The translations under genes were made by a program, and so were the position numbers. Positions 2,144-42,782 of a DNA stretch of 64,000 bases are shown here, piece by piece. The notes below the pieces were generated by a model, which saw nothing but the letters and a program-made list of their open reading frames with translations, did not search any database and was not told the origin of the DNA. This DNA is from Clostridia bacterium (lineage in GTDB: Bacteria > Bacillota > DSM-521 > Neomoorellales > SLTJ01), in assembly GCA_004347685.1 (NCBI GenBank), contig SLTJ01000017.1, forward strand, positions 62,001-126,000, read 5' to 3'. How positions within the stretch are numbered: the stretch's first letter is position 1; every line of letters begins with the position of its first letter.

Positions 2144-2644
2144 TCACAGGGAGAACTCCCACCGGCACCAGGTATCTTCAGGGTGATCGTCCGGCGGGCA
2201 GAAAACGCACGTGGTCTTCACCCTGGGGTCAATGGCCCTGGCAAAACCAGAATACTGCACGATCCCCACCGGCTGACAGGCAAAGTCGGCCAGGCCCTTG
2301 CGCTTTCTGGCCGATTGTACCCGGCAGCTATGGTTACGCAGGATGATTTTGTCCGGTGCCATCTCAAGCTGGGAATCGTTGATACGATACGCCAGCCGGA
2401 ATTTGAGGGCCGTAAACACTGCCTCGAGGCCGGGATTTTCCCCCAGACCGAGCATATTCTTGATGCGGTCGGCCTCAACGACCGTAAACTGGGACCAGGC
2501 CTTCTTGTCCAGCTCAATGGCGGCCTCCAGCCCGAATTTGTCCTCCACCGCCTGAAACCAGAGGCCGTCATGGGCGTACCACAACTTAGCCGCTTCCTTG
2601 AGCCAGTCCAGCAGTTCAGCCTTGCCCAAATCCTGTAAGTCCAA
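2144..2644 (-). CDS. Conserved protein, DUF6125-like, with a C-terminal cysteine cluster
   Basis: A 166-residue cytosolic protein of unknown function. The N-terminal half is helical with a Trp-Tyr-Ala-His-Asp-Gly-Leu-Trp-Phe motif. The C-terminal half has conserved-looking Cys residues in Asn-His-Cys-like, Phe-Ala-Cys-Gln-Pro-Val-Gly, Thr-Thr-Cys-Val-Phe-Cys-Pro-Pro-Asp and Trp-Cys-Arg-Trp contexts, suggesting a metal site. I recognise the pattern as close to the DUF6125 family of anaerobic Firmicutes, but from memory only. The frame is open to 2662; GGAGG sits seven bases before the TTG at 2644, which also gives the family-like Met-Asp-Leu N-terminus. It is monocistronic as far as can be seen. 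Confidence 0.7.
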   Translation of the reverse strand: MDLQDLGKAELLDWLKEAAKLWYAHDGLWFQAVEDKFGLEAAIELDKKAWSQFTVVEADRIKNMLGLGENPGLEAVFTALKFRLAYRINDSQLEMAPDKIILRNHSCRVQSARKRKGLADFACQPVGIVQYSGFARAIDPRVKTTCVFCPPDDHPEDTWCRWEFSL

Positions 2645-2773
2645 TTCCTCTCCTCCCGTCAAATGTGATTGTTATTTACATTTTCTTCGCCTCCAGCCTG
2701 GCAGTTACCTGCCGGCAACCACAGAAATTGCAAATCGAAGTCCCCCCGCCCACCCTTCTCTAGCCCTGATTGC

Positions 2774-2799
2774 CCTGCCGGTATAGCCCCACCGGCAGG
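2774..2799 (+). terminator. Leader hairpin upstream of the MFS gene
   Basis: A perfect 9-bp stem (CCTGCCGGT / ACCGGCAGG) with an 8-base loop, followed about ten bases later by a T-rich stretch (cttttgttttt). On the + strand this resembles an imperfect terminator or attenuator about 110 bases before the transporter start. Confidence 0.4.
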
Positions 2800-2911
2800 A
2801 CAGGCATGACTTTTGTTTTTCTGGAGGAAATCGGCTGGACATAGAGAATATCACATCCCAATGTCTGTCAGGAGGGTACAATCCCGATCCAGCAGGGGAG
2901 GAGTAGACGTT

Positions 2912-4411
2912 GTGAAAGAAAGTAGCCGCGTTCTAGTGGTGGCCTCCCTGATGCTGGCCATGTTCCTGGCTGCCATTGAGGCCACCATCGTCGCCACCGC
3001 CATGCCTACCATCATCGGCAGCCTGGGCGGGTTCCGGCTTTATAGCTGGGTCTTTTCCGCCTTCTTGCTTACGCAGGGGGCCTTTATCCCCATTTTCGGG
3101 CGCCTCTCCGACCTGTACGGCCGCAAGCCGGTCTTTACGGTGGCTACCCTTATCTTTTTGCTGGGAGCCTTTCTCAGCGGCCACGCCCGCAGTATGGAGC
3201 AACTCATTATCTTCCGGGCTGTCCAGGGACTGGGGGCGGCCGGAGTGCAGCCCATCACCCAGACTATCATCGGTGATATTTTCACGCTGGAAGAGAGGGC
3301 GCGGGTGCAGGGGTGGCTTTCCAGCGTCTGGGGCATTTCGTCCGTGGCCGGACCGACGCTGGGCGGGCTGATAGTTGATCACTGGAGCTGGCCCTGGATT
3401 TTCTATATCAATATTCCCCTGGGCTTGATCGCCATCGCCGGCCTCTGGCTTTTCCTGCGCGAGCGACCGGCCGCTCAGCGCCACAGCATTGATTATGCGG
3501 GATCCGCCCTCCTGGTGACGGCGGTAACGGCTCTGCTGGTGTTTGTGATCGAAGGCGGGAGCGGCTGGCCCTGGCTGTCCGCTGGCAGCCTCGGCTTCCT
3601 CGGCCTGGCCGCCGGTACGGGCGCAGTTTTTCTCTGGTGGGAAAACCGGGTGGCCGAACCCTTACTTCCCCCCGGGTTGTTCGCCAACCGGGTCATTGCT
3701 TTTTGCGATCTGGCGGTAGTATTCTCGGGAGCCCTTACCCTGGGCATAAGCTCCTTTACTCCTACCTTGGTCCAGGGCGTGATGGGGACATCCGCCACCG
3801 TGGCCGGCCTGGCTCTAGGGGCCATGTCCCTAGGCTGGCCTCTAGCCAGCACCTTTTCCGGCCGTCTCATGCTCCGAATAGGCTACCGCTCAACCGCCAT
3901 TGCCGGGAGCTTTTTTACCATCATCTCGGCCGGGGTCATGCTTTCCCTACCGTATGTTCCGAGTGTGGCCACCGCGGCCCTGGGATCTTTCTTAATGGGT
4001 ATGGGTATGGGACTGACCTCGACTACCTTCATCGTGGCCGTGCAAGGAGCAGTGAGTTGGGAACAGCGGGGAGTGGCTACCAGCTCCAACGCCTTCATGC
4101 GCATGCTTGGCAGCACGGTGGGTGTGGCTGTTTTCGGCAATATCCTAAACAACGGCCTCGTCCGGCAACTAGCGTCCTTGCCAGATACAGTGAAAAGCGC
4201 TGTCGGCACCAATCCCGACGTGGCCAGGATGCTTCTGGATCCGGTAACCCGCCATTCCCTGCCGGCATGGGTACTGCAGCCCCTGCGGGACGCCCTTTTT
4301 GTTTCCGTCCACGGTGTCTACGTTGCCCTCGCCGTCACGGCTGTGGCCGGAGCCCTGGTAGTGCGTCTCATCCCCCGTGGTCTGCCAGACGGCCTCCAGG
4401 CCAGGCGGTAA
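2912..4411 (+). CDS. DHA2-family (EmrB/QacA-type) MFS drug exporter
   Basis: A 499-residue integral membrane protein with the 14-helix length of the DHA2 proton antiporters that expel drugs and other amphipathic compounds. Visible signatures are the N-terminal Met-Phe-Leu-Ala-Ala-Ile-Glu-Ala-Thr-Ile-Val-Ala-Thr-Ala-Met-Pro (motif D1), the loop 2-3 motif Gly-Arg-Leu-Ser-Asp-Leu-Tyr-Gly-Arg-Lys, and motif C around Gly-Pro-Thr-Leu-Gly-Gly in helix 5. The frame is open from 2813, but AGGGGAGGAG at 2894-2903 lies eight bases before the GTG at 2912, just ahead of the first helix. No regulator gene adjoins it; the substrate cannot be predicted. Confidence 0.92.
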   Translation: MKESSRVLVVASLMLAMFLAAIEATIVATAMPTIIGSLGGFRLYSWVFSAFLLTQGAFIPIFGRLSDLYGRKPVFTVATLIFLLGAFLSGHARSMEQLIIFRAVQGLGAAGVQPITQTIIGDIFTLEERARVQGWLSSVWGISSVAGPTLGGLIVDHWSWPWIFYINIPLGLIAIAGLWLFLRERPAAQRHSIDYAGSALLVTAVTALLVFVIEGGSGWPWLSAGSLGFLGLAAGTGAVFLWWENRVAEPLLPPGLFANRVIAFCDLAVVFSGALTLGISSFTPTLVQGVMGTSATVAGLALGAMSLGWPLASTFSGRLMLRIGYRSTAIAGSFFTIISAGVMLSLPYVPSVATAALGSFLMGMGMGLTSTTFIVAVQGAVSWEQRGVATSSNAFMRMLGSTVGVAVFGNILNNGLVRQLASLPDTVKSAVGTNPDVARMLLDPVTRHSLPAWVLQPLRDALFVSVHGVYVALAVTAVAGALVVRLIPRGLPDGLQARR

Positions 4412-4425
4412 CCGAACGAATGACA

Positions 4426-4513
4426 TGGTGCCCGAGGCCGGGGTCGAACCGGCACGGGATATACTCCCGTGGGATTTTAAGTCCCATGCGTCTGCCTATT
4501 CCGCCACTCGGGC
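4426..4513 (-). tRNA. tRNA-Leu (anticodon UAA)
   Basis: A class II cloverleaf of 88 bases including an encoded CCA end. The acceptor arms GCCCGAG and CTCGGGC pair, the anticodon loop reads CTTAAAA (anticodon TAA), a variable arm of the leucine type is present and the T loop is GTTCGACCC. It sits between the MFS gene and endonuclease III, on the opposite strand to both. Confidence 0.97.
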
Positions 4514-4591
4514 ATTTCTATCTTACGGGGCTATTATAGCACGGGCAATACGTGTTTGCAATCCGCCTGGTTGGCCAGGGGAGGGACGAAG

Positions 4592-5251
4592 TTGGACAAC
4601 GAGCAAATAAGAGAAATACTTGATCTCCTGGCGGCAGCCTACCCGGAAGCCAGGACTGCCCTGGAATTTAGCAATCCATTTGAACTCCTCATCGCCACCA
4701 TTCTTTCAGCCCAGGCCACAGACGCTCAGGTAAACAAGGTTACGAAGCGCCTGTTTGCCCGGTACAAGACCCCCAGGGACATGGCTGCGCTAACGCCGGA
4801 GGAGCTGGCTGAGGAAATCAAGGGGTGCGGGTTATACCGCCACAAGAGCGCCAACATAATAGCCACCTGCCGCATCCTGTGCGAGAAATATGAGGGGCAG
4901 GTGCCAGAAACCCTGGAAGAGTTGACGGAGCTGCCGGGGGTGGGCCGCAAGACTGCCGGCGTGGTGCGCATCAATGCCTTTGGCCGGCCGGCCATGCCGG
5001 TAGACACCCATGTTTTCCGGGTGGCCAACCGCCTGGGCCTGGTCCGGGCCGGTAACGTGAAGCAAGCCGAAACGCAGTTGCGCCAAGCCATTCCCCCAGA
5101 CCTCTGGGGGCCGGCCCACCACTGGTTGATCGTCCATGGCCGCCAAGTCTGCCGGGCGAGAAGCCCGCGCTGTTCACAATGTGTCCTGAGTCACCGGTGT
5201 CAGTTCTGCAGCCGAAAAACAGATACCAGCGGGGAACACGACTGCAGTTAG
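4592..5251 (+). CDS. nth: Endonuclease III (base-excision-repair DNA glycosylase/AP lyase)
   Basis: A 219-residue enzyme that removes oxidised pyrimidines and cleaves the resulting abasic site. The helix-hairpin-helix is Leu-Pro-Gly-Val-Gly-Arg-Lys-Thr-Ala, containing the catalytic Lys, and the catalytic Asp follows in Val-Asp-Thr-His-Val. The C-terminal [4Fe-4S] ligands have the canonical spacing Cys-x6-Cys-x2-Cys-x5-Cys. The family position after the Lys-Thr-Ala is usually Asn but is Gly here. TTG at 4592 is preceded at seven bases by AGGGGAGG; the frame is open to 4556. It stands alone between a tRNA and the convergent polyamine genes. Confidence 0.95.
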   Translation: MDNEQIREILDLLAAAYPEARTALEFSNPFELLIATILSAQATDAQVNKVTKRLFARYKTPRDMAALTPEELAEEIKGCGLYRHKSANIIATCRILCEKYEGQVPETLEELTELPGVGRKTAGVVRINAFGRPAMPVDTHVFRVANRLGLVRAGNVKQAETQLRQAIPPDLWGPAHHWLIVHGRQVCRARSPRCSQCVLSHRCQFCSRKTDTSGEHDCS

Positions 5252-5367
5252 CCCCGGCACGGTGTGGGCGCGGGCTGACGGCTGCAACCAAACTGGAGGA
5301 TTTTCCATTTCCCGCCATCGCATAATGCTTGGGATGGCCGGCCCGCGCTGCGAAGACAAGGAGAATG

Positions 5368-5404
5368 GTAAGTACTCAGCCTCCAGGCCGGTCGGAGGTC
5401 GGGC
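5368..5404. repeat. Solitary end of the MITE-like element seen at 12.9 kb
   Basis: The stretch starting GTAAGTACTCAGCCTCCAGG matches, over about 36 bases with few differences, the right terminal repeat of the complete element at 12865-13001 (GTAACTGCTCAGCCTCCAGG, then GCCGGTCG). No second end is found nearby, so this is a remnant or single end. It lies in the 177-base gap between nth and the agmatinase gene. Confidence 0.6.
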
Positions 5405-5428
5405 AAGGAACGTATCTCCCGGGATCGT

Positions 5429-6283
5429 TTATGCCAGTATGCTCAACAGGGCTTCCCGCAGTACCTTGGCGGCCAGCAAGGCGGTAATGTCGCCGGGTCC
5501 GGCCAGCGGGCTCACTTCGACCAGATCCATCCCCACCACTTTTAATCCGTGCAGATGGCAAACTGCCTCCAGCAGTTCGGCGGCCATCGGCCCACCCGGC
5601 TCGGGGGTACCGGTACCCGGCGCCGCGGCCGGATCCGCCACGTCTATGTCTATGGATACGTAAACGGGCCGCCCAGCAAGTTCCTCCGCCGCCAGGACCA
5701 CCGACTGAGTCAGGGCATTGCCTGGAAAGAACCGGGTATGTTTACGGGCCAGGTCCCATTCCTCGGCCGTGGCCGACCGGATGCCTACCTGGTAAAGGTT
5801 AGCCCAGCCGATTTTTCTTCCCACCAGGTACATAACTGTAGCATGGGAAAGCTCATGTCCCATGTACTCTGCCCTCAGGTCGGCATGGGCGTCAAGTTGC
5901 AGGACCGCCAGATCCGGGTACCTGGCCGCCATTACCTGCACGACGGGCCAGGTGAGCAAATGCTCTCCCCCCAGGGTGACCGGCACCCGCCCTTGTCCGG
6001 TCACCTGTAAAATATGAGTAGCGATGAGGCCCAGGCCGGCGGCTACATCTCCCGGCGGGAGTTCCAGGTCTCCGGCGTCAAGGAACGGCACCTCTGCCAG
6101 GCAACGCTGCAGCCTGGGGCTGAATTCCTCCAGGGCTTGAGAGGCCTGGCGAATGGCTGCCGGCGCGAAACGCGTACCGGGACGATAAGAAGTGGTGACG
6201 TCCAGGGGAACTCCAGCCAGGACGGCCCGGGCGCGGTCGGCTTCACTGCCGGCGGCCAAGAACCGAAGCGGAGATAATGCCAT
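5429..6283 (-). CDS. speB: Agmatinase (ureohydrolase family)
   Basis: A 284-residue binuclear manganese enzyme expected to hydrolyse agmatine to putrescine and urea. Metal-binding signatures of the arginase/agmatinase superfamily are present in order: Gly-Gly-Glu-His near residue 106, Asp-Ala-His-Ala-Asp near 130, and Ser-Ile-Asp-Ile-Asp-Val-Ala-Asp-Pro near 213. The ATG at 6283 is eight bases after the spermidine synthase stop, and the AGGTAGGTGA ribosome site overlaps that stop. Pairing with speE places it in polyamine synthesis by the arginine-agmatine route. The arginine decarboxylase is not in the window. Confidence 0.92.
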   Translation of the reverse strand: MALSPLRFLAAGSEADRARAVLAGVPLDVTTSYRPGTRFAPAAIRQASQALEEFSPRLQRCLAEVPFLDAGDLELPPGDVAAGLGLIATHILQVTGQGRVPVTLGGEHLLTWPVVQVMAARYPDLAVLQLDAHADLRAEYMGHELSHATVMYLVGRKIGWANLYQVGIRSATAEEWDLARKHTRFFPGNALTQSVVLAAEELAGRPVYVSIDIDVADPAAAPGTGTPEPGGPMAAELLEAVCHLHGLKVVGMDLVEVSPLAGPGDITALLAAKVLREALLSILA

Positions 6284-6291
6284 GCAATCAC

Positions 6292-7116
6292 CTACCTTAC
6301 GGCCCCTTGCAGGAAGTTAGGAAGAACAAAGGCTGCCTGGTGTACCGCCGGGGAGTAGTAGCGGCCGGCTGCAACCACCTGCCCCCGGACGGCCACAGGA
6401 TCATGCTTCTTGCTCCCCAGGGTGAACGTCCACAAGCCGCCGGGATAGGAGGGGATAACGGCCTCATATATGCGTACTGTGGGGAAGATACCCCGCCAGG
6501 TGGCAAAGACTTTCTTAATCAGATCCAAATTATAAAAGGGGGATTCCGTCTGGGCTACCAGTATCCCCTCAGGGGCCAGGGCTCTTTCGATCTGGCGATA
6601 GAAGGGCTCCTCAAACAGCCCCCGGGCCGGGCCTACCGGGTCGGTAGAATCTACGATGATTACGTCGTAAGCCGATTCCTTGCCTTTCAGGTACTTTGTC
6701 CCATCCTCGTAACATATTTTTACCCTGGGATCGTCCAGACCGGAAGACAACTGGGGCAGGTACTGCCTGGACACCTCGACTACCCGGGCGTCAATTTCCA
6801 CCAGGGTCACTTCTTCTGGGGAGGGATGGCGCAGGCATTCCCGAACCGTGCCCCCGTCACCTCCGCCGATCACCAGGATCCGCTTCGGGTCAGGGTGGAC
6901 ATTGAGAGGCACCAGGGCTATCATTTCGTGGTAGGCGAATTCATCAAACACGGTGGTCTGGATCACGTCGTCCAGGGCTAGCATCAGACCAAAAGGGTCT
7001 GTATCGAGAACCTTTATTTGCTGGTAAGGTGTCCTCTCGGAATGCAGTATCTTCTTCACCACGCAAGATATAGCCAGGCTATCCAACTGCTTTTCACTAA
7101 ACCAGGTTCCCGGCAA
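6292..7116 (-). CDS. speE: Spermidine synthase (polyamine aminopropyltransferase)
   Basis: A 274-residue enzyme that transfers the aminopropyl group of decarboxylated SAM to putrescine. An N-terminal beta domain (Trp-Phe-Ser-Glu-Lys-Gln) precedes a Rossmann core with Ile-Gly-Gly-Gly-Asp-Gly-Gly, the acidic Val-Glu-Ile-Asp at the end of strand beta-2, Tyr-Glu-Asp-Gly and the catalytic Asp in Asp-Ser-Thr-Asp-Pro-Val-Gly-Pro. The frame is open to 7230. TTG at 7116 follows a GGGGGA ribosome site by eight bases and matches the usual family N-terminus and length. First gene of a two-gene polyamine operon with speB. Confidence 0.94.
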   Translation of the reverse strand: MPGTWFSEKQLDSLAISCVVKKILHSERTPYQQIKVLDTDPFGLMLALDDVIQTTVFDEFAYHEMIALVPLNVHPDPKRILVIGGGDGGTVRECLRHPSPEEVTLVEIDARVVEVSRQYLPQLSSGLDDPRVKICYEDGTKYLKGKESAYDVIIVDSTDPVGPARGLFEEPFYRQIERALAPEGILVAQTESPFYNLDLIKKVFATWRGIFPTVRIYEAVIPSYPGGLWTFTLGSKKHDPVAVRGQVVAAGRYYSPAVHQAAFVLPNFLQGAVR

Positions 7117-7266
7117 GGCTGTTTCCCCCTTTTCCCAGATATCTTCCTGAATACTAATGCTGGAGCCGGTGCAAAAAACTGACCTGCTACCTAGTTTCCC
7201 CACCAGCAGGCAAAATCCTTCCAGAACCAAAATTCAAAGGGGCCACCCGGGCCCCTGCTGCTAACT

Positions 7267-7410
7267 TCATCCACAACCAAACTGTCGCCAGTCTACGTCT
7301 AGCCATTCCAGCTCCCGGCTGCCACAATCCGGGCAAACAAGCCCTGCCTCTCCATACAAGTCAAGATAAGACTCCACGCCGCAACGACGGCACCTGGCGA
7401 GCGCGTCCAT
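7267..7410 (-). CDS. Small zinc-ribbon protein
   Basis: A 47-residue protein. It has two Cys-x-x-Cys knuckles (Cys-Arg-Arg-Cys-Gly and Cys-Pro-Asp-Cys-Gly) separated by about 20 residues, the layout of a zinc ribbon, and ends in an acidic Leu-Asp-Val-Asp-Trp tail. ATG at 7410 is preceded by GGGGAGGG at about seven bases. It starts four bases after the stop of the CoA-binding gene, so it is the last gene of the trxA operon. The function is unknown. Confidence 0.72.
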   Translation of the reverse strand: MDALARCRRCGVESYLDLYGEAGLVCPDCGSRELEWLDVDWRQFGCG

Positions 7411-33290: not shown

Positions 33291-34775
33291 TCAACGGCCG
33301 GCCAGGAGCCGGGCTATGCTATAGGCGCACTGGGCCCGGGTGGCCGGAGCCGCGGCGGCAAAATCCGGGTACAGGAAGCCTTTTTGCCGGGCTAGATCCA
33401 GATAGGCGCTGTACCAGGCCGGCCCGCGGGCCTCCACCTCCGGACCAGCCAGGCCGGCCGCCCGGACCAGGATGGCCACCACTTCAGCGCCGGTTATTTT
33501 GTCGCCCGGCGCAAAGGCTTCCTTTCCCCTGCCGCGCAGATAGCCTTTATCCACCGCCACCTTGATGACAGCATTGGCCCAGTGGTTGCGGCCCACATCG
33601 TTAAACTGCTCCGTAGCCGGCCCCACCTGGTCTTGCTGTCCCATGGCGTAGACGATTATCTTGGCGAATTCGGCCCGGGTCACGCTGTTTTCCGGCTTGA
33701 AGGTACCATCCGGGTAGCCGTTGATTATGCCAGAGGCCGCCAGGGAAGTGACCGCCTCGTAAGCCCAGTGACCGGCCGGCAGGTCGGTAAAGCCCGGCGC
33801 CCGCGGCAGGAGGGCCAAAAATCGCCACCCAGAGAGGGCAATCAGGGCCTGAGAGGTCATCCACACCGGGTAAGAAGTTTCCGCCTGCCGGTACATGAAG
33901 CTGCCGTCTGCCGCCTGCAAACCGAGGAGATGGGCCACCGGCCCACCGGATCTGGCGGTCCACGGTACAGCCAGGGGATCCCGGCCGGCGGCCAGCAGGG
34001 CCAGGATTACCATGGCGTCGGAGCCGGCGTTACCCCGGTTATCACCGTAGGCAAAACCGCCGTCCGGGAGTTGCTGCTGGCGCAAGAAAGCCAGTGCCCG
34101 ACCAATGGCCGGGTCACCCTCACTTACCCCCAGGAGGCGCAGGGCGAGGATGGCCGTGGCCGTGTCGTCCGGGTCGCTGGGAAGACCACGGGCATAGCCC
34201 CAGCCGCCATCCTCATTTTGCGCTTCTTCCAGCCATTTCCGGGCCAGACCGGTATTCGGGATCTTTACCCCCGCCAAGCCCAGGGCGATAATACTCCAAA
34301 CGTGACTGTTAACCAACTCCTCCTCCCCCTGGCGGCCGAAATGCCCGCCGGCGTCCTGCCCGGCCAGCAGGTAGCCGGCCAGGTCCCGGCCGGCGAAATC
34401 CCGGCCATTGGCCCCGGCTAGACTCACGGCCAGGAGTAATCGGGCATAATCAGTGGTCGCCGCCAGGGTGCCGGGGTTCTTCTCCAGGTAGCTGACCGGC
34501 GTTTCTCCACCCCTGGTCCATTTCGGGCCGCCGACATCCTCGCCGGCCAGAGCCAGGCCCATCACCGCCCAGGCGGTGAATTCCGGCGAGCCAAAGCCCC
34601 CGTCGCTGACCTGGGCCCGGCGCAGGTAATCTACCGCCCGGGGGCGCGCCGCTGCCACGGTATCCGTAGAAATACCGGCGGCCTGAACCGGCAGCGGCAG
34701 CACCCCCAGTACCATAACGGCCGCCAAGACCAGGGCCAGGGCTCTAATCGCGCCTCTCTCCCTCCACCTGTTCAC
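33291..34775 (-). CDS. SLH-anchored alpha/alpha-toroid protein (intrinsic-factor alpha-domain-like)
   Basis: A 494-residue secreted protein. It has a signal peptide (residues 1-33, ending Val-Gln-Ala-Ala). Residues 40-330 contain prenyltransferase/terpenoid-toroid repeats (Asp-Gly-Gly-Phe-Gly, Glu-Asp-Gly-Gly-Trp-Gly-Tyr, Pro-Asp-Gly-Gly-Phe-Ala-Tyr, Ala-Asp-Gly-Ser-Phe). Three SLH domains follow to the end (Phe-Thr-Asp-Leu-Pro-Ala-Gly-His-Trp-Ala; Ile-Ile-Asn-Gly-Tyr-Pro-Asp-Gly-Thr-Phe-Lys-Pro). The toroid is the fold of the corrinoid-binding alpha domain of transcobalamin. GTG at 34775 has GGGGGTAG six bases upstream and overlaps the ecfS end. Last gene of the operon. Corrinoid binding is inferred. 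Confidence 0.85.
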   Translation of the reverse strand: MNRWRERGAIRALALVLAAVMVLGVLPLPVQAAGISTDTVAAARPRAVDYLRRAQVSDGGFGSPEFTAWAVMGLALAGEDVGGPKWTRGGETPVSYLEKNPGTLAATTDYARLLLAVSLAGANGRDFAGRDLAGYLLAGQDAGGHFGRQGEEELVNSHVWSIIALGLAGVKIPNTGLARKWLEEAQNEDGGWGYARGLPSDPDDTATAILALRLLGVSEGDPAIGRALAFLRQQQLPDGGFAYGDNRGNAGSDAMVILALLAAGRDPLAVPWTARSGGPVAHLLGLQAADGSFMYRQAETSYPVWMTSQALIALSGWRFLALLPRAPGFTDLPAGHWAYEAVTSLAASGIINGYPDGTFKPENSVTRAEFAKIIVYAMGQQDQVGPATEQFNDVGRNHWANAVIKVAVDKGYLRGRGKEAFAPGDKITGAEVVAILVRAAGLAGPEVEARGPAWYSAYLDLARQKGFLYPDFAAAAPATRAQCAYSIARLLAGR

Positions 34776-35388
34776 CAAAATCTACCCCCTCTCGCACTTC
34801 GTAGGTAACCCGCAACCTCTCCTGAAACCTCCGTATAATGGCCAGGCAGCCCGGGCCGAAGGCCAGGGCCAGGACTATATTGCCAGCCGCATGGGCCGTA
34901 TCAAACCAGAAGCCGGCGGCCCAGGTAGCCAGAAAACCTGTCCAGGTAAGCGGAAAGATAAAGGTCAGCCAGTGCCAGACATCCATGATGGCCCCAAAGA
35001 GGTAGCCCCAGAGGCCAAGGAATATGGCCAGCAAAAACCGGTCCGGTTCCCGATAAAGTCTGCCCAGCCAGCCTGCGCTCAAGCCTACCAGGCCCCAGGC
35101 CAGCATCTGCCACGGTGTCCAGGGCCCCTGGCCCAAGAAAAGATTAGAGAGGAAGGCCGCCAGGGAGCCGACTATAAATCCGGCCCGGCCGCCCATAACC
35201 CATCCGGCCGCAGCCACGAAAAAGGTAGTTGGCTGCACCCCGGGCAGCGCCGCCAGGGGTACCCGCGTCACCGCCGCCAGCGCCGCCAGGGAGGCCATAA
35301 CGGGTATTTCCTTAACCGCCATCCGGCCCCAGGCCAGACCGCTCACCAGAACAACAGCCACTATCGCCAGAGCTATCAACCAGGCCAA
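34744..35388 (-). CDS. ECF transporter S component, CbrT-like (predicted cobalamin)
   Basis: A 214-residue, six-helix substrate-binding membrane protein of an energy-coupling-factor transporter. The segment Gly-Val-Gln-Pro-Thr-Thr and the later Gly-Phe-Ile-Val-Gly-x-x-Ala-Ala-Phe-x-Ser-Asn, followed by Gly-Gln-Gly-Pro-Trp-Thr-Pro-Trp-Gln-Met, resemble the CbrT cobalamin family as I remember it. TTG at 35388 is seven bases from GGGAGG. It lies between the EcfA-A and toroid genes in the cobalamin-riboswitch operon, which supports corrinoid as substrate. Confidence 0.85.
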   Translation of the reverse strand: MAWLIALAIVAVVLVSGLAWGRMAVKEIPVMASLAALAAVTRVPLAALPGVQPTTFFVAAAGWVMGGRAGFIVGSLAAFLSNLFLGQGPWTPWQMLAWGLVGLSAGWLGRLYREPDRFLLAIFLGLWGYLFGAIMDVWHWLTFIFPLTWTGFLATWAAGFWFDTAHAAGNIVLALAFGPGCLAIIRRFQERLRVTYEVREGVDFGEQVEGERRD

Positions 35389-35415
35389 AACCCGGCCTCC
35401 CTTCTCCTACAGGTT

Positions 35416-37245
35416 TCACCGCTTGGCCAAAACGGCAGGCAGCGGGACAGCCGCGCGGCTTACCAGGCGGCGCAACTCCGCTTCCGCCTTGGCCACCGTC
35501 AGGACGCCGGGTACGAAGCCGCGAAACAGCCGGTAGACCTGGGGCGTGAAAAAGAAAAACTCCGGCAGAACTTCTTCTTTCGGCCCCTGGGCCACTAGCC
35601 GGCCCCCGGAGAGGAAAAGAATTGCCTCGGCAAACTCGGCTACAAACTCCACATCGTGGCTCACCAGCAACACCAGTTTACCCTCCCCGGCCAGCGTGCA
35701 GAGGACATTCCCTACCCTCTCCTTGACCTGGTAATCCAGCCCCCGCGTCGGCTCGTCCAGGACCAGGACCCGCGGGTCACCAGCCAGGACAGCAGCCAGG
35801 GCCGCCAGTTGCCGCTCACCGCCGCCCAGATCCCGCGGGTTAGATTCCGCCCGGGTGGCCAGACCCACCAGCTCCAGCCACCTGTTCACCTGGTCAGGCT
35901 CCACTTTTTTATCCCTGGCCCGCAGGGTGAACTCCACTTCGGCCCGGACGGTGCTCTGAAAGAGCATGTCGCCCGGGTTCTGGGGCAGGTACCCCACCAC
36001 CTCGGCCATGACCTCCACCGGCACCTGCCCGGTATCCTGGCCGGCCACCAGCACCCTTCCCCGGGTCGGCCGCAGGAGACCGTTGAGATGCCTGACCAGG
36101 GTGGACTTACCAGCACCGTTGGCCCCCATGACAGCCACCACCCTGCCGGGAGACAGGCTAAAACTGATATCCTCCAAAACCCGTTTCCCATTCCCGTAGG
36201 TGAAGGAAAGGCGCTCGACCACCACTAGCGGCTCCCGAGCCCCAGCGTCCCCGTCCGGCCGCCGCACTTCGGCCTGGCAGCCCTCGTCTCCCCGCCTCTC
36301 GCTGGCGTCAGGGGAGAGACCGTTGACGCGCGGAAACCAGGAAACCCGCCGGCGCCGGTGGTGAAGCTCCAGCTCTTGCGCCGGTGCCGTTTCTTCCCGG
36401 TCACCGGAACCGGATCCCGCACCGGCCTCACCCAGCCGGGCCAGCCACTGCCGCCCTTCTTTGACCGTCAGAGGCAGGGGGGAAAGACCTCCAGAGGCGA
36501 AGACCCTGGGCAAGGGCGGCACCAGGCCATCCCAGGCCCGGATATTCTTCAACACCTCGACCGGCCTGCCATCTTGGCCGACCGTACCCTCCCGCATGAG
36601 AATAACCCGGTCAGCCAGGTGCAGGCACCGCTCCAGGCGCTGCTCCACCAACAGGATGGTCAGGCCGTTTTCCTCGTTGATCCGCTTGAATAACTGCAGG
36701 ATTTCCTCAGCCGCCACCGGGTCAAGCTGGGAAGTCGGCTCATCGGCCAGCAGGACCGAGGGGTGCGGCGCCAGGGCCGCAGCCAAGGCCACTTTCTGTT
36801 TTTCCCCGCCGGAAAGCTGGCTCACCGGCGCCTGGCGCAAAGAGTCTAGGGCAAAAAAATGTAGCATTTCCGCCACTCGCCGGCTGACAACTTCCCGGCC
36901 CCAACCCATGTTCTGCAGGCCAAAGGCGATTTCCGTCTCCACCACCGGCGTCACAAGCTGGCTTTCGGGGTCCTGGAAAACCATACCTGCCAACCGCGCC
37001 ACCTGGTCCGGCCGGGCCAGCCAGACATCTTGACCGGCCAGCCTCACCCGGCCGGAGATCTCGCCACCGTAAAAATTAGGTATTAGGCCGGTCACCGCCC
37101 GCAGGAGGGTAGACTTGCCGGAACCGGAAAGCCCGGCCAGCAGAACAAACTCTCCCGCCTCCACCGCCACGGTCACCCCCTGCAAAGCCGGGTACCCGGC
37201 CCCAGGGTAACGATAGGTGAGTTCAGCTATCTCGATCAGGGCCAT
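35416..37245 (-). CDS. Fused double ATPase of the ECF transporter (EcfA-EcfA')
   Basis: A 609-residue cytosolic protein with two ABC ATPase domains that power vitamin uptake. Domain 1 has Gly-Leu-Ser-Gly-Ser-Gly-Lys-Ser-Thr (about 38-46), Leu-Ser-Gly-Gly-Glu-Lys-Gln and Leu-Ala-Asp-Glu-Pro-Thr-Ser. Domain 2 has Gly-Ala-Asn-Gly-Ala-Gly-Lys-Ser-Thr (near 400), Leu-Gly-Gly-Gly-Glu-Arg-Gln and Leu-Asp-Glu-Pro-Thr-Arg. A hydrophilic linker of about 80 residues joins them. In most Firmicutes the two are separate. ATG at 37245 follows GGAGATGG and overlaps the ecfT stop; the frame is open to 37398. Confidence 0.92.
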   Translation of the reverse strand: MALIEIAELTYRYPGAGYPALQGVTVAVEAGEFVLLAGLSGSGKSTLLRAVTGLIPNFYGGEISGRVRLAGQDVWLARPDQVARLAGMVFQDPESQLVTPVVETEIAFGLQNMGWGREVVSRRVAEMLHFFALDSLRQAPVSQLSGGEKQKVALAAALAPHPSVLLADEPTSQLDPVAAEEILQLFKRINEENGLTILLVEQRLERCLHLADRVILMREGTVGQDGRPVEVLKNIRAWDGLVPPLPRVFASGGLSPLPLTVKEGRQWLARLGEAGAGSGSGDREETAPAQELELHHRRRRVSWFPRVNGLSPDASERRGDEGCQAEVRRPDGDAGAREPLVVVERLSFTYGNGKRVLEDISFSLSPGRVVAVMGANGAGKSTLVRHLNGLLRPTRGRVLVAGQDTGQVPVEVMAEVVGYLPQNPGDMLFQSTVRAEVEFTLRARDKKVEPDQVNRWLELVGLATRAESNPRDLGGGERQLAALAAVLAGDPRVLVLDEPTRGLDYQVKERVGNVLCTLAGEGKLVLLVSHDVEFVAEFAEAILFLSGGRLVAQGPKEEVLPEFFFFTPQVYRLFRGFVPGVLTVAKAEAELRRLVSRAAVPLPAVLAKR

Positions 37246-38110
37246 ATCGCCATCTCCACGCCAGAAGACTGGGCCAGAATAACCCGGCCGCCAGGAAAGG
37301 AAGCCAGCGCAAGGCCGTCGGGTTAAAGGGGCTCTCCGCTGCTGGATAGAAAGTAAAGCTGGCCGCCCCGGTAGCCAGGGCCCCGATAGCGGCGCCAAGG
37401 GTCACGGCCAGTCCGGCCAGCACCAGCTTGTCTTCCTGCTGCCAGGCCAGCTCGTGCCACGGGTAGCGGCGGCCACCGACGTACCCGCGGGCCAGCATGG
37501 CCTCGCCCAACTGCCAGCTCCGCTCCAGGGTAGTTAACAGCAGGGGCTGCCAGACAGCCAGGCTATTCGCCAGCCGCCGTGACCAAGGTATCCCGGCAAA
37601 TCTTACCCCCCGGGAACGCATGGCCTCGGTAATCCGCCGCTGTTCTTCCAACAGCAGGGGAAAAAGCCTCACCCCCAGGCTAATGACCAGTCCGGCCCGG
37701 CCGGAAAACAGGCGGCTGTGCCCGAGGAGTTCCTCGATAGGCACTGTGAGGCTGAAAACCGCCCAGCCGGCCAGCAAAGTAAAGAGCCGCAGGCCCATGA
37801 CCGTCCCGTAGGCCAGGGCCTCCCGGCTGAAGGGCAGACCGGATACCAGAGCCGTTTGGCCGCTGCGGCTGATGAGAACGTTAAACAATATCACCGTCCC
37901 CACCAGGGGCCCGGCCAGGCGAAGCAGTTGCCGGAGCGTCTGTTTCCCTCCGCTGCTGGCCGTTCCGGCCACGGCAGCCGCAGCCAGCACCAGCAGGTAA
38001 AGAGGATGGGAAAAGATAAGGGCCGGGAAGAAAAGGCCGGCGCAGACCAGGAGGACGCTGGCCGGGTGCAACCGGTGCCAAAAATCGTCGCGGTGAGTGT
38101 AGGCAAACAA
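37223..38110 (-). CDS. ECF transporter transmembrane component EcfT
   Basis: A 295-residue membrane scaffold of the vitamin transporter. It shows the EcfT/CbiQ-like N-terminal Thr-His-Arg-Asp-Asp-Phe-Trp-His-Arg-Leu-His-Pro and the two coupling motifs Ala-Met-Arg-Ser-Arg-Gly and Ala-Met-Leu-Ala-Arg-Gly that contact the ATPases. The frame is open to 38317; TTG at 38110 is eight bases after GGGAG and gives the family N-terminus. It lies 22 bases after the DUF4430 protein stop and overlaps the ATPase gene start. Confidence 0.9.
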   Translation of the reverse strand: MFAYTHRDDFWHRLHPASVLLVCAGLFFPALIFSHPLYLLVLAAAAVAGTASSGGKQTLRQLLRLAGPLVGTVILFNVLISRSGQTALVSGLPFSREALAYGTVMGLRLFTLLAGWAVFSLTVPIEELLGHSRLFSGRAGLVISLGVRLFPLLLEEQRRITEAMRSRGVRFAGIPWSRRLANSLAVWQPLLLTTLERSWQLGEAMLARGYVGGRRYPWHELAWQQEDKLVLAGLAVTLGAAIGALATGAASFTFYPAAESPFNPTALRWLPFLAAGLFWPSLLAWRWRYGPDRDS

Positions 38111-38132
38111 TCTCTTCACTCCCAGACAAGGC

Positions 38133-39443
38133 TCATTCCGCCGGTAGTCTAGTTGCCCCGTCTTCACCCAGGGCCAGGCCGTAAGCCTGGTGCAACTGAT
38201 CCGGCGCCTGCCGCATAAGCCGGACCGCCGCCTCCACCCATTTTCTTTCCGTACCCACCACCAGCCACAGCGGCGCAGCGTCTCCCAAGCCCTGGCCGGT
38301 GGCCTGGATGGCCGCACCGGCCTTCAGGACCGCCGCCTTATCCCCGGCCGCGTCCAGGAGTTCTATCCCATCGGAGGTGAACCTGGCAAAAATCCCGACC
38401 CGCGCCCCCCGCTGGTTAAGCTCCTTCACCGAGGATAGCTTCTCTAGTTCGGCCCAGGTGCCCAGCAGGAGTACGGGTGCCGGCCGCTGCTCCAACACGG
38501 CCTCGTCCACTACCTTTACCTCAACCTCTATCCCCAGGGAAGCCCAGGCTTCCTGTAACCCGTCCACGGCCCTGGCCGCCTCCGGCGTAAACATGATGAC
38601 CGGCCCGGGAGTCCGGCCGCCACCGGCCGGGCGGAAGGGGTAAGGATAACTCCCCACCACGGCCGGCACCAGGCCGCTTGCCTGCCATGAGTGGTAGTCC
38701 CACCACACCCGGTCACCGGACTGCAGCCGGTATTCGCCGGCACCAACCCCGGCGGCCACACCGTTGACGTAATAAAACCAGTCCCGGCCCGGCTCACTGC
38801 TGAGACCATTGATCCCCCGGACAAAATTGCCGCCGTAACCCGTGTCCACTTTTGCCAACCCCTGGAGCAAGGCCAGTACTGTCCCGGCGCTCTCCAACTC
38901 CGCCTCCTTGTCTAGCAATACCTGGCGGCCGAAATCCCGGGTGACCACCAGGCTGACACTGGGTTTCTCCGTCGTACCTCCAGCCAGCGCCGCCGTTTTT
39001 CCCCGGCCGGCGGATTCGCCGGCCGGCGCCCCTGTGGCCCGGAGAGCAGCGCCGGCCAGGGCACCACCGGTAGCCTCGCTACCTGCCAGGTCCCCTGGAG
39101 GCCTGAACTCGTTGTCTTCCTCACCCGGAGGGTAGGCCGGCGTATCTTCGGGGGCAGCCTGGGGAGCGTGGCTCCCGGCCGGGCCTGCCTCTGCAGGCGC
39201 GGTCACACCGGGCGCATTGCCGGCCTTAGCCGCGACCTGCGGCAGGTGTGGATACAGGACGCCCCCGGCTCCGCCACCATGTTCCACGGGCTCACCGCTC
39301 GCCGCCACCTCACCGCCCGGGGAGGCACCCGGGCCCGCGGCAGGCTGGTCCCCCGAGGTCACCTGCCAGCTCCAGAAACCGAGGGCTGCCACCATCACCA
39401 AGGCTGCCAGCAACACTATCGTAACCCTTCGCCTGTCATGCAT
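38133..39443 (-). CDS. Membrane-anchored DUF4430 protein (transcobalamin beta-domain-like)
   Basis: A 436-residue exported protein. An N-terminal signal-anchor helix (residues 6-27) precedes a low-complexity Ala/Gly/Pro/Glu linker to about 165 and a DUF4430 domain at about 170-265 (Val-Leu-Ala-Leu-Leu-Gln, Gly-Tyr-Gly-Gly-Asn-Phe, Phe-Tyr-Tyr-Val-Asn-Gly, Gly-Glu-Tyr-Arg-Leu-Gln-Ser-Gly-Asp-Arg-Val). A C-terminal domain of unknown family follows. DUF4430 is the fold of the C-terminal beta domain of transcobalamin and intrinsic factor. ATG at 39443 follows GGGGGAG by seven bases. It may pass corrinoid from wall-bound proteins to the ECF transporter (inference). Confidence 0.85.
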   Translation of the reverse strand: MHDRRRVTIVLLAALVMVAALGFWSWQVTSGDQPAAGPGASPGGEVAASGEPVEHGGGAGGVLYPHLPQVAAKAGNAPGVTAPAEAGPAGSHAPQAAPEDTPAYPPGEEDNEFRPPGDLAGSEATGGALAGAALRATGAPAGESAGRGKTAALAGGTTEKPSVSLVVTRDFGRQVLLDKEAELESAGTVLALLQGLAKVDTGYGGNFVRGINGLSSEPGRDWFYYVNGVAAGVGAGEYRLQSGDRVWWDYHSWQASGLVPAVVGSYPYPFRPAGGGRTPGPVIMFTPEAARAVDGLQEAWASLGIEVEVKVVDEAVLEQRPAPVLLLGTWAELEKLSSVKELNQRGARVGIFARFTSDGIELLDAAGDKAAVLKAGAAIQATGQGLGDAAPLWLVVGTERKWVEAAVRLMRQAPDQLHQAYGLALGEDGATRLPAE

Positions 39444-39483
39444 ACGTGGGCTCCCCCTCGAATACGTCCTCTGCCCTGAAAAT

Positions 39484-39544
39484 GCGGAGGTTGGAAGTTG
39501 GAGGTTAGAGGTTGGAACTTGTGGGAACTTGCTGCGCAAGTTCC
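39484..39544. repeat. Interspersed GAGGTTGG element with CTGCG-loop hairpin (copy 2)
   Basis: GGAGGTTGGAAGTTGGAGG and TTAGAGGTTGGAACTT are followed by a hairpin with an 8-bp stem GGAACTTG / CAAGTTCC and the same CTGCG loop (39524-39544) as the copy at 9059. It lies between two genes of the cobalamin operon. Confidence 0.65.
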
Positions 39545-39628
39545 AGATCTAACTCCCATCCTCGCACCTCGGTTTTCATCCCCCTGCTGGTAACGCCGCC
39601 GGCGCCGTGGACGTCCGGCCTGAGTAAC

Positions 39629-42367
39629 TTACTCAGGCCGGGCCTGGTGGAGCAACAACCGGTAGATGAAGACTGCCGCCTGGGCCCGCGTCACCGCTTC
39701 CCGGGGCCGCAGCGAACCGCCCGGCAGCCCTTCCAAAAGCCCGGACCGGGCCGCCGCCGCCACCCCGGCCTCGGCCCAAGGGGCAATGGCCTCTCTATCG
39801 GCAAATACCGCCAACAACTCCTGTGTCTCCGGCCCTGCAGCTTCCTCATTTTTGGCTACGGCGCGGGCCAGCACGCAGGCCATTTCCTGCCGGGATACTG
39901 GCCGCTCCGGGGAGAAGAAACCACGTTCGTCACCCCGGAAAAGGCCCATCTCCTGGACCCGGCTCACATATGAGGCATACCAGGCCGCCGGGGATATGTC
40001 GGCAAAGGGCGGAGACGATACCTTGCCCGAGTCGCCCTTATCAGCCCCCATGGCCAGCAACAGCATCTTGGCTGCCTCGGCCCGGGTCACGGCTCTGGCG
40101 GGCGCAAAGGTCTTCTCGCCCACCCCTTGCAATATGCCTCGCCCGGCCAGCATTTCCACAGCTTCACGGGCCCAGGGGTATTCCTCCCCGGTGACATCGG
40201 TAAAGGAAACCGGTTCCCACTGCCGCGCCAGGACCGCGAACCGGGTGAAATGCCGGACCTCGGCCACCAAGTACCCGTTGGCCAGGTCCAGGACCGCCGG
40301 CACCGGCAGCCATTGCTCCTTCTCCTCGTCCAGCCAGGCCAACACCAAGTGGCCAGGATCCGTGTCTTCCCGGTCGGGGACAAAGCGGAGCTTCATGACG
40401 GCCGGCGCATCAAAGACTAATCCATCCGGGCCAAAGGTATAGACCGGCGAGGCTAGCCGGTAGTTGAGCGGCAGGTAAAGAGGTATATCCCGGGCTTTCT
40501 CCTCCCGTACGGTAAGGGTTGTATCGGCCTTGAGGCTGCCGGCCGGGACCTGTAGAGCTACCTCCTCCCCGGTGTCCTTGAGAGTGCCGCCGGCCGAGGC
40601 CTTCACTTCTTGCTGCACCTGCACCCGGTTCGCGGCCAGGGCCTCCCGTAACCCAGCCTTTTCTTCCGGCCCCATGGGGTTGTCGCGGCCCACCACGGCC
40701 ATGAGACTCTCCCGCAGCCACTGCACCGGCTGGTCTAGGATCTCCACCCTCTGCCCCACTTCCTCCTGCACCTGGCTTAAAGCTTCCACGGCCCGGGCGG
40801 CAATTTCCTGCCGGGCTTGCTGCTGCTTGGGTGGGATTGGAGCCAAGCTTTGCTCCTCCGCGAAACCGCCGGTATCCAGGTAATCGGAAGCGTAGAACCA
40901 GACAACGCGATCACCGTCCCGCAGCCGGTAATCCCCAGCCGATACGGCCGGCACTACCCCGTTGACAGCGTATTTCCACCCGGCGGCCCCGGCGGCGCTA
41001 ATCCCGTCCACAGCCACCACATAACTACCGCCGTAGCCCAATTCCACTTCAGCTCCAGTGGCCCGCAAAGCCTCCAGGGCCGTTTGCCCCCCGGGCGCGA
41101 GCCCTACTTGCTCCTCGTACAGCACCCCGCTCGGGCCGCGAACCTCAACGGTTATGGTAATCGCTCCCGGTCCCGGGCCGTCTCCCCCCGGCGGCGGAGC
41201 CCCCTGGGGATCAACCCAGGTGCCGGGATCAGCCTCCGGGTAGGTAGAGGCAAGGGCTGCCAGGGCCAGGAGCACCTTGCCGGCCAGTTCCGGCCGGTTC
41301 CAATGCTGTCCGCCATAGAGGTCGAGGGCAAAGGAGCCATCCTCCTGCTGCAGGCACAAGAGGAAATTGACCGGGTTATTCTGGCCCTGCGGCCCCGTAC
41401 TCCACTCAACCGGATTGTGGCCCAGCGTGATCAGGGCCTGGACAACCTCGGCGGTAGTAGCCGCGTTACCCTTTGTATCTGGACCAATTGGGCTGAAATT
41501 CTCATCATAAGCCAGGGAGGCAAAACCGCCGTCTTCCTTCTGGAAGGTCTTGAGGTAAGCCAGACCGGCATCAACCGCCTGATTCACATCATCCCCGTAT
41601 ACCTGGGCAACCAGCGTATCCCCGGCCAGGACCTTCAGGGCCCGCAGGGCCGTGGCCGTCATATCCGGATCGCTCGAGGTGGACGAAACATCGTATCCCC
41701 AGCCACCGTCCCCATTTTGGGCCGCTAGCAGCCAGTCAGTAGCATACACCGCCTGGGGCACGCTCTCCCCTGCCGCCTCCAGGGCCAGAATGGACCAGAC
41801 ATGTGGGCTTACATATGTACTTTCATCGGTCGGCCAGCCCCAGCTCTGGTACTGCTGGTTGCCAAAATGGCCGTTCTCGTTCTCCTGGCGAGACTTTAGC
41901 AACTCCACCAGGCTGCGGCCGCCAAAGTTAGCAAAATCATAGGTAGTACCATAGTGGCCATAGGTAGCCCCGGCCACGGTAAGCAGCACCCGGGCTATCT
42001 CCGCCGTGGCGGGGAAGGGCGGGGAAACAGGAAGCCCTTCGGCCGGCAAGGTCAAATCCCACCCTGCCACCTGCTCCTGGAGGTAATCCAGGTGGTTCTG
42101 GCCGTCCCTACTCCACGCCGGACCCAAAATGACTTCGCCTGCGGCCGTCAGCCCCATGGCGGCCCAGTCGCTGCCCAGGTAACCGTTCCCCTGCTGGCTG
42201 GACAGCAGGTAATATACAGCCTCGGCCACGGACTGGTAAACTGCCTCCGAAACCGAGGGAGGCAGACCGGCAGTGGCTTCCTCTGGCCCCGGCCCAAGGC
42301 TGAGAGAAAAAAAGGAAATCAGGAATACCATTAGGACGACTAGAGATGTGAGTTTAGTCTTAAACAA
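39629..42367 (-). CDS. SLH-anchored intrinsic-factor-like protein (toroid + DUF4430)
   Basis: A 912-residue secreted protein, first gene of the operon. Order: signal peptide (1-33); alpha/alpha-toroid repeats (about 40-400: Gly-Asp-Gly-Gly-Trp-Gly-Tyr, Glu-Asp-Gly-Gly-Phe-Ala-Ser, Glu-Asp-Gly-Ser-Phe); DUF4430 (about 420-510: Gly-Tyr-Gly-Gly-Ser-Tyr, Trp-Lys-Tyr-Ala-Val-Asn-Gly, Gly-Asp-Tyr-Arg-Leu-Arg-Asp-Gly-Asp); a ZU5-like beta domain (about 590-710); three SLH domains to the end. Toroid plus DUF4430 is the two-domain plan of vertebrate cobalamin carriers. TTG at 42367 follows GAGGAGG by seven bases. Corrinoid binding is inferred from fold and riboswitch control. Confidence 0.88.
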   Translation of the reverse strand: MFKTKLTSLVVLMVFLISFFSLSLGPGPEEATAGLPPSVSEAVYQSVAEAVYYLLSSQQGNGYLGSDWAAMGLTAAGEVILGPAWSRDGQNHLDYLQEQVAGWDLTLPAEGLPVSPPFPATAEIARVLLTVAGATYGHYGTTYDFANFGGRSLVELLKSRQENENGHFGNQQYQSWGWPTDESTYVSPHVWSILALEAAGESVPQAVYATDWLLAAQNGDGGWGYDVSSTSSDPDMTATALRALKVLAGDTLVAQVYGDDVNQAVDAGLAYLKTFQKEDGGFASLAYDENFSPIGPDTKGNAATTAEVVQALITLGHNPVEWSTGPQGQNNPVNFLLCLQQEDGSFALDLYGGQHWNRPELAGKVLLALAALASTYPEADPGTWVDPQGAPPPGGDGPGPGAITITVEVRGPSGVLYEEQVGLAPGGQTALEALRATGAEVELGYGGSYVVAVDGISAAGAAGWKYAVNGVVPAVSAGDYRLRDGDRVVWFYASDYLDTGGFAEEQSLAPIPPKQQQARQEIAARAVEALSQVQEEVGQRVEILDQPVQWLRESLMAVVGRDNPMGPEEKAGLREALAANRVQVQQEVKASAGGTLKDTGEEVALQVPAGSLKADTTLTVREEKARDIPLYLPLNYRLASPVYTFGPDGLVFDAPAVMKLRFVPDREDTDPGHLVLAWLDEEKEQWLPVPAVLDLANGYLVAEVRHFTRFAVLARQWEPVSFTDVTGEEYPWAREAVEMLAGRGILQGVGEKTFAPARAVTRAEAAKMLLLAMGADKGDSGKVSSPPFADISPAAWYASYVSRVQEMGLFRGDERGFFSPERPVSRQEMACVLARAVAKNEEAAGPETQELLAVFADREAIAPWAEAGVAAAARSGLLEGLPGGSLRPREAVTRAQAAVFIYRLLLHQARPE

Positions 42368-42529
42368 CGGTAAGCCTCCTCGTATGCCTAATCTCTGGCC
42401 CCAACAACTGCCGCAGCAGGGCCACTGCTCATCCCTTTTTCCGGAAACTGCCACCACCGAACCCGCGCCATCAGCCTATCCGCATGCCGCCGCCAGCCGG
42501 CCACCGCCCGGAACAATCTTCCCGCCAAT

Positions 42530-42561
42530 AAAAAACCTCAACCCGGTCGAAAGGTTGAGGT
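42530..42561 (-). terminator. Terminator of the cobalamin riboswitch
   Basis: A CCTCAACC / GGTTGAGG-type stem followed by TTTTTTATT about 40 bases after the aptamer. It indicates control by transcription termination about 160 bases before the first gene. Confidence 0.88.
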
Positions 42562-42604
42562 AGCGCGTTCCATGTGCAAAAGGCACTCCCCCTTTCCGCC
42601 GAAG

Positions 42605-42782
42605 GTGCAAGAGCGCCGCTCTCAGGCAGGTTTCCTGACTCATGGGTCACCGCTTTCTCCGCCTTCCCGGAAATACCAGTGGCCTTGTGGAGAAAACTAC
42701 CCATTTACAGTGGCGGGGCCGTCCGGGATTTGCACCCGGTTCCCTTTTACCCGGCATACCCTGCCGGGCACCTGAAAGCGTC
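42605..42782 (-). ncRNA. Cobalamin (AdoCbl/B12) riboswitch
   Basis: The minus strand carries the diagnostic blocks in order: CAGGTGCCC, AAAAGGGAACCGGGTGCAAA, CCCGCCACTGTAA, GCCACTGG, GGGAAGGC, and the B12 box GAGTCAGGAAACCTGCCTG. Cobalamin binding should favour the terminator at 42530-42561 and switch off the six downstream genes. It lies about 65 bases after the cbiO stop, so transcripts from the metal transporter could also run into it. Confidence 0.96.

Follow-up and report, generated by a model that had tools for sequence, protein, structure and literature searches.

The 64,000-nucleotide window analysed here (positions 62,001 to 126,000 of contig SLTJ01000017.1, assembly GCA_004347685.1, from a Clostridia bacterium) contains a six-gene operon in which a predicted cobalamin importer of the energy-coupling factor (ECF) type is encoded together with three predicted surface proteins related to the vertebrate B12 carriers. 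Coordinates refer to the window, and all operon features lie on its minus strand. The genes, termed g1 to g6, encode proteins of 912, 436, 298, 609, 214 and 494 or 495 amino acids, and are separated by short gaps or overlap. Upstream of g1 is a cobalamin riboswitch aptamer (RF00174, 42790-42608), which covers the full model (1-189) with a cmscan score of 130.4 bits (E 1.6e-32; gathering score 31.5 bits) and is the sole RF00174 match in the window in an Rfam scan. It is followed, still 5' of g1, by a rho-independent terminator that forms the riboswitch expression platform (42559-42527), a CTCAACC hairpin and T-run with a folding energy of -10.5 kcal/mol; a second hairpin with a T9 tract (33233-33173) is, from its sequence and fold, the probable terminator of the operon. 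The arrangement reported in a preliminary description of this DNA, a riboswitch and terminator followed by six tightly packed genes on one strand, is thus confirmed. A perfect 27-nt hairpin without a T-run (39641-39615, -22 kcal/mol) lies at the end of g1 and 5' of g2; it may be a processing or polarity element, and could set the ratio of g1 to g2. The gene order, riboswitch, family memberships, folds and co-conservation described here were all established computationally.

The three importer components named in the preliminary description were borne out. The ECF T component is encoded by g3 (38119-37223; PF02361, CbiQ, E 2.5e-20), and in related loci profiles built for this analysis find the ECF T gene conserved between the DUF4430 and AA' genes. 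The g4 product (37245-35416) is a fused A-A' ATPase with two ABC_tran domains, scoring above the cut-off of the ECF_ATPase NCBIfam model. For the S component, g5 (35388-34744), a profile built from an alignment of ten S-component sequences from the class (A1) was compared with all PDB sequences; 6fnp_A was matched with E 2.4e-19, and the only other match below 1 had an E-value of 0.87. The record labels 6fnp_A just 'membrane protein', but we take 6FNP to be the ECF-CbrT entry. The operon almost certainly serves corrinoid uptake. CbrT of Lactobacillus delbrueckii binds and transports both cobalamin and cobinamide (PMC5997447; PDB 6FNP), and this operon has the S-component family and the T and AA' partners in common with that system. 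However, L. delbrueckii CbrT uses an ECF module common to other vitamins and is encoded in an nrdJ-cbrS-cbrT-pduO arrangement (PMC5997447), whereas the present operon encodes dedicated T and AA' components as well as three predicted extracellular proteins and is preceded by a riboswitch.

The first of these extracellular proteins, g1 (42367-39629, with a TTG start at 42367), consists of a signal peptide, an alpha/alpha toroid (~42253-41249; Pfam SQHop_cyclase_C, E 6e-9), a DUF4430 domain (~41122-40877, E 1.2e-13), a ZU5 domain (~40600-40370, E 1e-5) and three SLH domains (~40207-39653). The toroid, DUF4430 and SLH domains had been described before, and the ZU5 domain had been overlooked. The last gene, g6 (34778-33291), overlaps g5 at its start and encodes 495 residues from a TTG or 494 from a GTG codon. 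Its toroid (~34670-33822, Pfam E 1.6e-10) was found as expected, but of the three SLH domains previously assigned to it only two are significant in Pfam and the third looks degenerate. Both proteins begin with hydrophobic, signal-peptide-like N-termini, as judged from their sequences.

The 436-residue g2 product (39443-38133) carries an N-terminal membrane anchor and a DUF4430 domain (Pfam E 6e-17; ~38918-38682) with a conserved WDYHxW motif. This much agrees with the earlier account, to which a second conserved domain of ~185 residues at the C-terminus (38621-38136) can be added. An AlphaFold2 model of ORF residues 190-468 is of high confidence (pLDDT 93.7, pTM 0.92). In Foldseek searches its N-terminal part resembles transcobalamin beta domains and the bacterial structure 3u7z, which is matched with target template-modelling scores (TMt) of 0.70-0.75 over the g1 and g2 models, and its C-terminal domain has an alpha/beta fold nearest to BcsB and GH115 domains. 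This C-terminal domain has no significant Pfam match. A domain of the same type is conserved behind DUF4430 in ~25 loci, Chloroflexi and Actinomycetota included.

The relationship of the DUF4430 domains to B12 carriers is detected at the level of profiles. PF14478 matches every one of the 37 DUF4430 segments tested, with g1 and g2 scoring above the cut-off. The best PDB matches of a DUF4430 profile (A3) are transcobalamin-1 (E 1.4e-4), transcobalamin-2 (1.3e-3) and 3u7z (3.1e-3); the match to intrinsic factor (E 0.5) is not significant. When g1 and g2 were compared with the PDB as single sequences, no B12 carrier was matched; the carriers emerged with profiles alone. A histidine occupies the variable position in 25 of the 28 DUF4430 segments that end in a WDYx-W-like motif, and one might speculate that the histidine of WDYHxW is a cobalt ligand. 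PF14478 is called transcobalamin-like in InterPro, and SEED has a role name for an additional lipoprotein component of a predicted cobalamin ECF transporter; the small DUF4430 protein may already be annotated as an importer part there. The 3u7z protein, RUMGNA_00854 of Ruminococcus gnavus, is a structural-genomics entry named as a putative metal-binding protein and represents a stand-alone bacterial DUF4430 fold; unlike g1, it consists of one domain and lacks both toroid and SLH. It shares one CATH superfamily with the beta domains of transcobalamin and intrinsic factor, a superfamily in which a beta-hairpin offers a surface for cobalamin (PMC13385337).

The toroid and DUF4430 domains of g1 were also modelled together with AlphaFold2 (40865-42268; pLDDT 85.3, pTM 0.74, with low confidence for residues 346-367 between the domains), and the model shows helices followed by strands. 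Transcobalamin, haptocorrin and intrinsic factor structures make up its 15 best PDB matches in Foldseek (E 1.4e-11 to 1.3e-8), and cyclases rank after them (E 1.5e-6). For the beta domain by itself, matches include 5no0 (TMt 0.69) and 3u7z (TMt 0.75). A joint profile of toroid and DUF4430 (A2) aligns colinearly with transcobalamin-1 (4kki) over columns 24-407 of 415 (E 3.8e-6), and the remaining PDB matches of A2 are dominated by cyclase toroids. Since the cyclase 8pak also reaches a TMt of 0.62 with the two-domain model, a specific likeness to transcobalamin belongs to the colinear pair and not to the toroid on its own. Vertebrate intrinsic factor, haptocorrin and transcobalamin have the same domain order as g1, a toroid followed by a beta domain of CATH 2.170.130.30, but the bacterial set is predicted to be anchored to wall or membrane, is also split into alpha-only and beta-only proteins, and is paired with an ABC-type importer where the vertebrate carriers use endocytic receptors. 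The SCO2321 family membrane protein (NCBIfam NF053823, named without a role) is matched by 25 of 29 operon toroids with E <0.001; g6 scores 78.7 bits against it, below the curated cut-off of 300.

A genome scan with profile A1 gave 574 confirmed S components, of which the best 80 were kept as named loci, and neighbouring genes were counted with domain profiles built for this analysis in the 62 loci with at least 6 kb upstream of the S gene. DUF4430 and A components were found in 62/62, T components in 61 and toroids in 55; as these loci are the closest relatives, this co-occurrence describes this S-component clade and not all CbrT homologues. The loci span Moorella, Desulfotomaculum, Clostridium, Bacillus, Paenibacillus, lactobacilli, Actinomycetota, Chloroflexi and archaeal metagenome-assembled genomes, as labelled by their depositors. 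DUF4430 itself is present in 15 of 20 genomes of the class and, among the matches listed, in at least 94 of 300 genomes of a phylum sample. Six loci without dedicated ECF genes nearby still pair an S component with a small DUF4430 gene, a minimal arrangement (L115, L116 and L118, which lack an upstream riboswitch match, and L126, L129 and L130). The L118 pair (5481-6382) lies within an apparent biotin-dependent decarboxylase operon, assigned on sequence alone, with carrier, membrane and carboxyltransferase subunits. In L117 and L128 no S neighbour of DUF4430 was detected within the stretch examined.

Cobalamin riboswitches accompany most of these genes. A same-strand RF00174 match occurs within 6.5 kb upstream of 23 of the 29 DUF4430 domains in the class and, among the matches listed, of 48 of 65 in 39 genomes of different families. 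In these two sets no opposite-strand match was found near DUF4430, and same-strand matches downstream number 1 and 4, respectively; the chance expectation is estimated by us at <1%, given ~3-4 riboswitches per 2-3 Mb genome. Three DUF4430 domains without a riboswitch (L121, L122 and L125) are at contig ends. Around the S-component loci, a strict riboswitch motif was matched no more than 800 bp from the first gene in 26 of the 50 loci searched, though in calibration this motif overlooked the known riboswitches of L017 and L028. An Rfam recheck of 22 of the 24 motif-negative loci (L074 and L080 were left out) added RF00174 in 11, nine of them with the aptamer at most ~1 kb from the first gene and the others (L082 and L109) with it ~3.3 kb upstream. 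The survey that the preliminary description had proposed, for co-occurrence of toroid, DUF4430 and SLH genes with B12 riboswitches, shows a near-constant association of DUF4430 and toroid genes with CbrT-type S components, mostly under cobalamin riboswitches.

The predicted means of surface attachment vary among the relatives. By eye and by pattern search, toroid-DUF4430 proteins without SLH domains in Clostridium and Bacillus relatives have a sortase-like motif and a C-terminal hydrophobic stretch, some toroid proteins have such a stretch without the motif, and the partner DUF4430 proteins often have a lipobox-like N-terminus. SLH domains, LPXTG-like motifs, C-terminal helices and lipoboxes thus appear to be interchangeable anchors, and the location of these proteins at the surface is predicted from them. 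A genome of the same family (L021, 4907-13144) encodes a 2114-residue protein with two DUF4430 domains, a toroid and SLH domains, adjoining a second toroid-SLH gene; same-strand cobalamin riboswitches flank this pair, at ~5 kb on its upstream side and close by on its downstream side.

In the 3.1 Mb host genome, a genome-wide profile search found two DUF4430 matches, both in the operon, and the two close toroid copies are also both within it, which argues that the pairing is more than chance. Directly upstream is a separate unit, a cbiM-cbiQ-cbiO-like cobalt transporter (45382-42849, minus strand; PF01891 E 1.6e-60, PF02361 E 9.5e-27 and ABC_tran). Elsewhere in the window, an S-adenosylmethionine (SAM) riboswitch (12857-12749, 81.6 bits, minus strand) precedes two genes (12711-10318) whose products resemble pyridoxal phosphate-dependent sulfur-amino-acid enzymes in sequence. 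Another region of the host genome (L015, C9:110000-122676) contains, within 2503-7311, a strong plus-strand RF00174 match (6148-6337) and a weak minus-strand one (7184-7311) close to the genes of an LTD/cohesin/dockerin protein and of an SLH protein, both on the minus strand, and is possibly another B12-controlled set of surface proteins.

The operon probably encodes a corrinoid-repressed surface capture module that feeds a CbrT-type importer. At low intracellular corrinoid levels the riboswitch would allow readthrough of the terminator, so that the ECF importer (CbrT-type S, T and AA') and the secreted corrinoid binders of the intrinsic factor/transcobalamin type would be made together. The SLH domains would hold g1 (toroid alpha and DUF4430 beta domains) and g6 (toroid) in the wall, and the N-terminal helix would tether g2 (DUF4430 and the alpha/beta domain) to the membrane beside CbrT. 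Alpha and beta domains would hold the corrinoid between them, in the manner of intrinsic factor, and concentrate it at the surface; g2 would then present it to CbrT, and T and AA' would drive its ATP-dependent import. That the surface proteins bind corrinoids is likely. An ordered relay, with handover in the direction from g1 and g6 to g2 and on to CbrT, is offered more tentatively.

Several observations weigh against this interpretation. The whole-chain superposition of the g1 model on the B12 carriers is poor (TM 0.34-0.50, root-mean-square deviation ~14 Å, for a ligand-free model). The structural comparison proposed at the outset is thus favorable, but with the limit that the match holds domain by domain; the alpha and beta domains of g1 are placed differently, and the model does not recover the alpha-beta geometry that encloses the ligand. 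The toroid alone is nearest in sequence to squalene-hopene cyclases, and transcobalamin is absent among the 60 best PDB matches listed for a toroid-only profile (A5). As the toroid alone is as near to squalene cyclases as to transcobalamin, the role of g6 is assigned by association and not from its own sequence. In half of the loci rechecked with Rfam (11 of 22), the stretch examined contains no cobalamin riboswitch; archaeal, Dehalococcoidia and Lactobacillales loci are among these, and the gene set therefore persists without this control. Finally, the host genome has further RF00174 sites close to genes that encode a BtuF-like binding protein and FecCD, CobT, CbiM, and CbiD together with corrin methylases; the operon is thus not the sole source of corrinoid, and the host probably both makes corrinoids and has another importer.

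The substrate might be a corrinoid precursor or breakdown product, such as cobinamide or an incomplete corrinoid, with the operon serving mainly in salvage. This is compatible with the mechanism above and differs from it in the ligand. The transport of cobinamide as well as cobalamin by CbrT (PMC5997447) and the corrin-synthesis and CobT genes of the host favor salvage; the riboswitch, which senses the end product and not the substrate, fits either ligand, and we hold this alternative to be less likely than not. Less credible is the view that only the importer handles corrinoids, and that the toroid and DUF4430 proteins are structural or adhesive, or act on, for example, a wall polymer, their presence in the operon being incidental. 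Toroid folds have diverse roles, SLH and ZU5 domains are generic, and the nearest folds to the g2 C-terminal domain would fit such a role; however, the co-conservation of DUF4430 with CbrT-type S components in every locus counted, minimal pairs included, the position of B12 carriers as the best PDB relatives of both the DUF4430 profile and the alpha-beta model, and the confinement of DUF4430 and close toroids to this operon in the host genome make it improbable. A class II terpene cyclase-like activity of the secreted toroid proteins was considered and rejected: squalene-hopene cyclases are the closest toroid sequences and g6 retains a DPDDTA motif matching the DxDDTA acid motif of cyclases, but that motif occurs in just 6 of 108 toroid ORFs, in no toroid-DUF4430 protein and not in g1, and a prenyl substrate is not expected outside the cell, where signal peptides and wall anchors would place these proteins. 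Cobalt import, to which the adjacent cbiMQO-like genes and the known control of cobalt uptake by cobalamin riboswitches might point, is equally implausible, because the S component matches CbrT and not CbiM, CbiM is encoded separately, and the DUF4430 relatives of known function bind cobalamin.

CbrT importers, cobalamin riboswitches, the homology of DUF4430 with transcobalamin and surface capture of B12 in Bacteroides are already known. In the last case, the BtuG and BtuH lipoproteins (PMC6143338, PMC8941943) likewise capture B12 at the surface ahead of an importer and are encoded in B12 transport loci, but they belong to separate protein families and feed an outer-membrane transporter; their likeness to the operon proteins is functional. 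A search of the open-access literature, with most subscription journals outside its reach, found no paper linking bacterial DUF4430 or toroid proteins to CbrT, and the SEED role phrase had no match in open-access papers.

Little is known about extracellular B12 capture in Gram-positive bacteria, and the module proposed here, if correct, would provide a defined set of proteins for testing in many genera. It would also explain DUF4430, which is still of 'unknown function' in Pfam, and would give bacterial proteins related to intrinsic factor and transcobalamin a setting in B12 uptake, with a bearing on the origin of the animal carriers. It is conceivable, though we hold this broader proposal with still less confidence than the relay itself, that alpha-beta carriers of the intrinsic factor type normally serve as the surface receptors for ECF-CbrT import across many prokaryotes, in a system of wider distribution and greater age than the animal carriers, in which wall carriers would pass corrinoid to a membrane-tethered DUF4430 protein and thence to CbrT.

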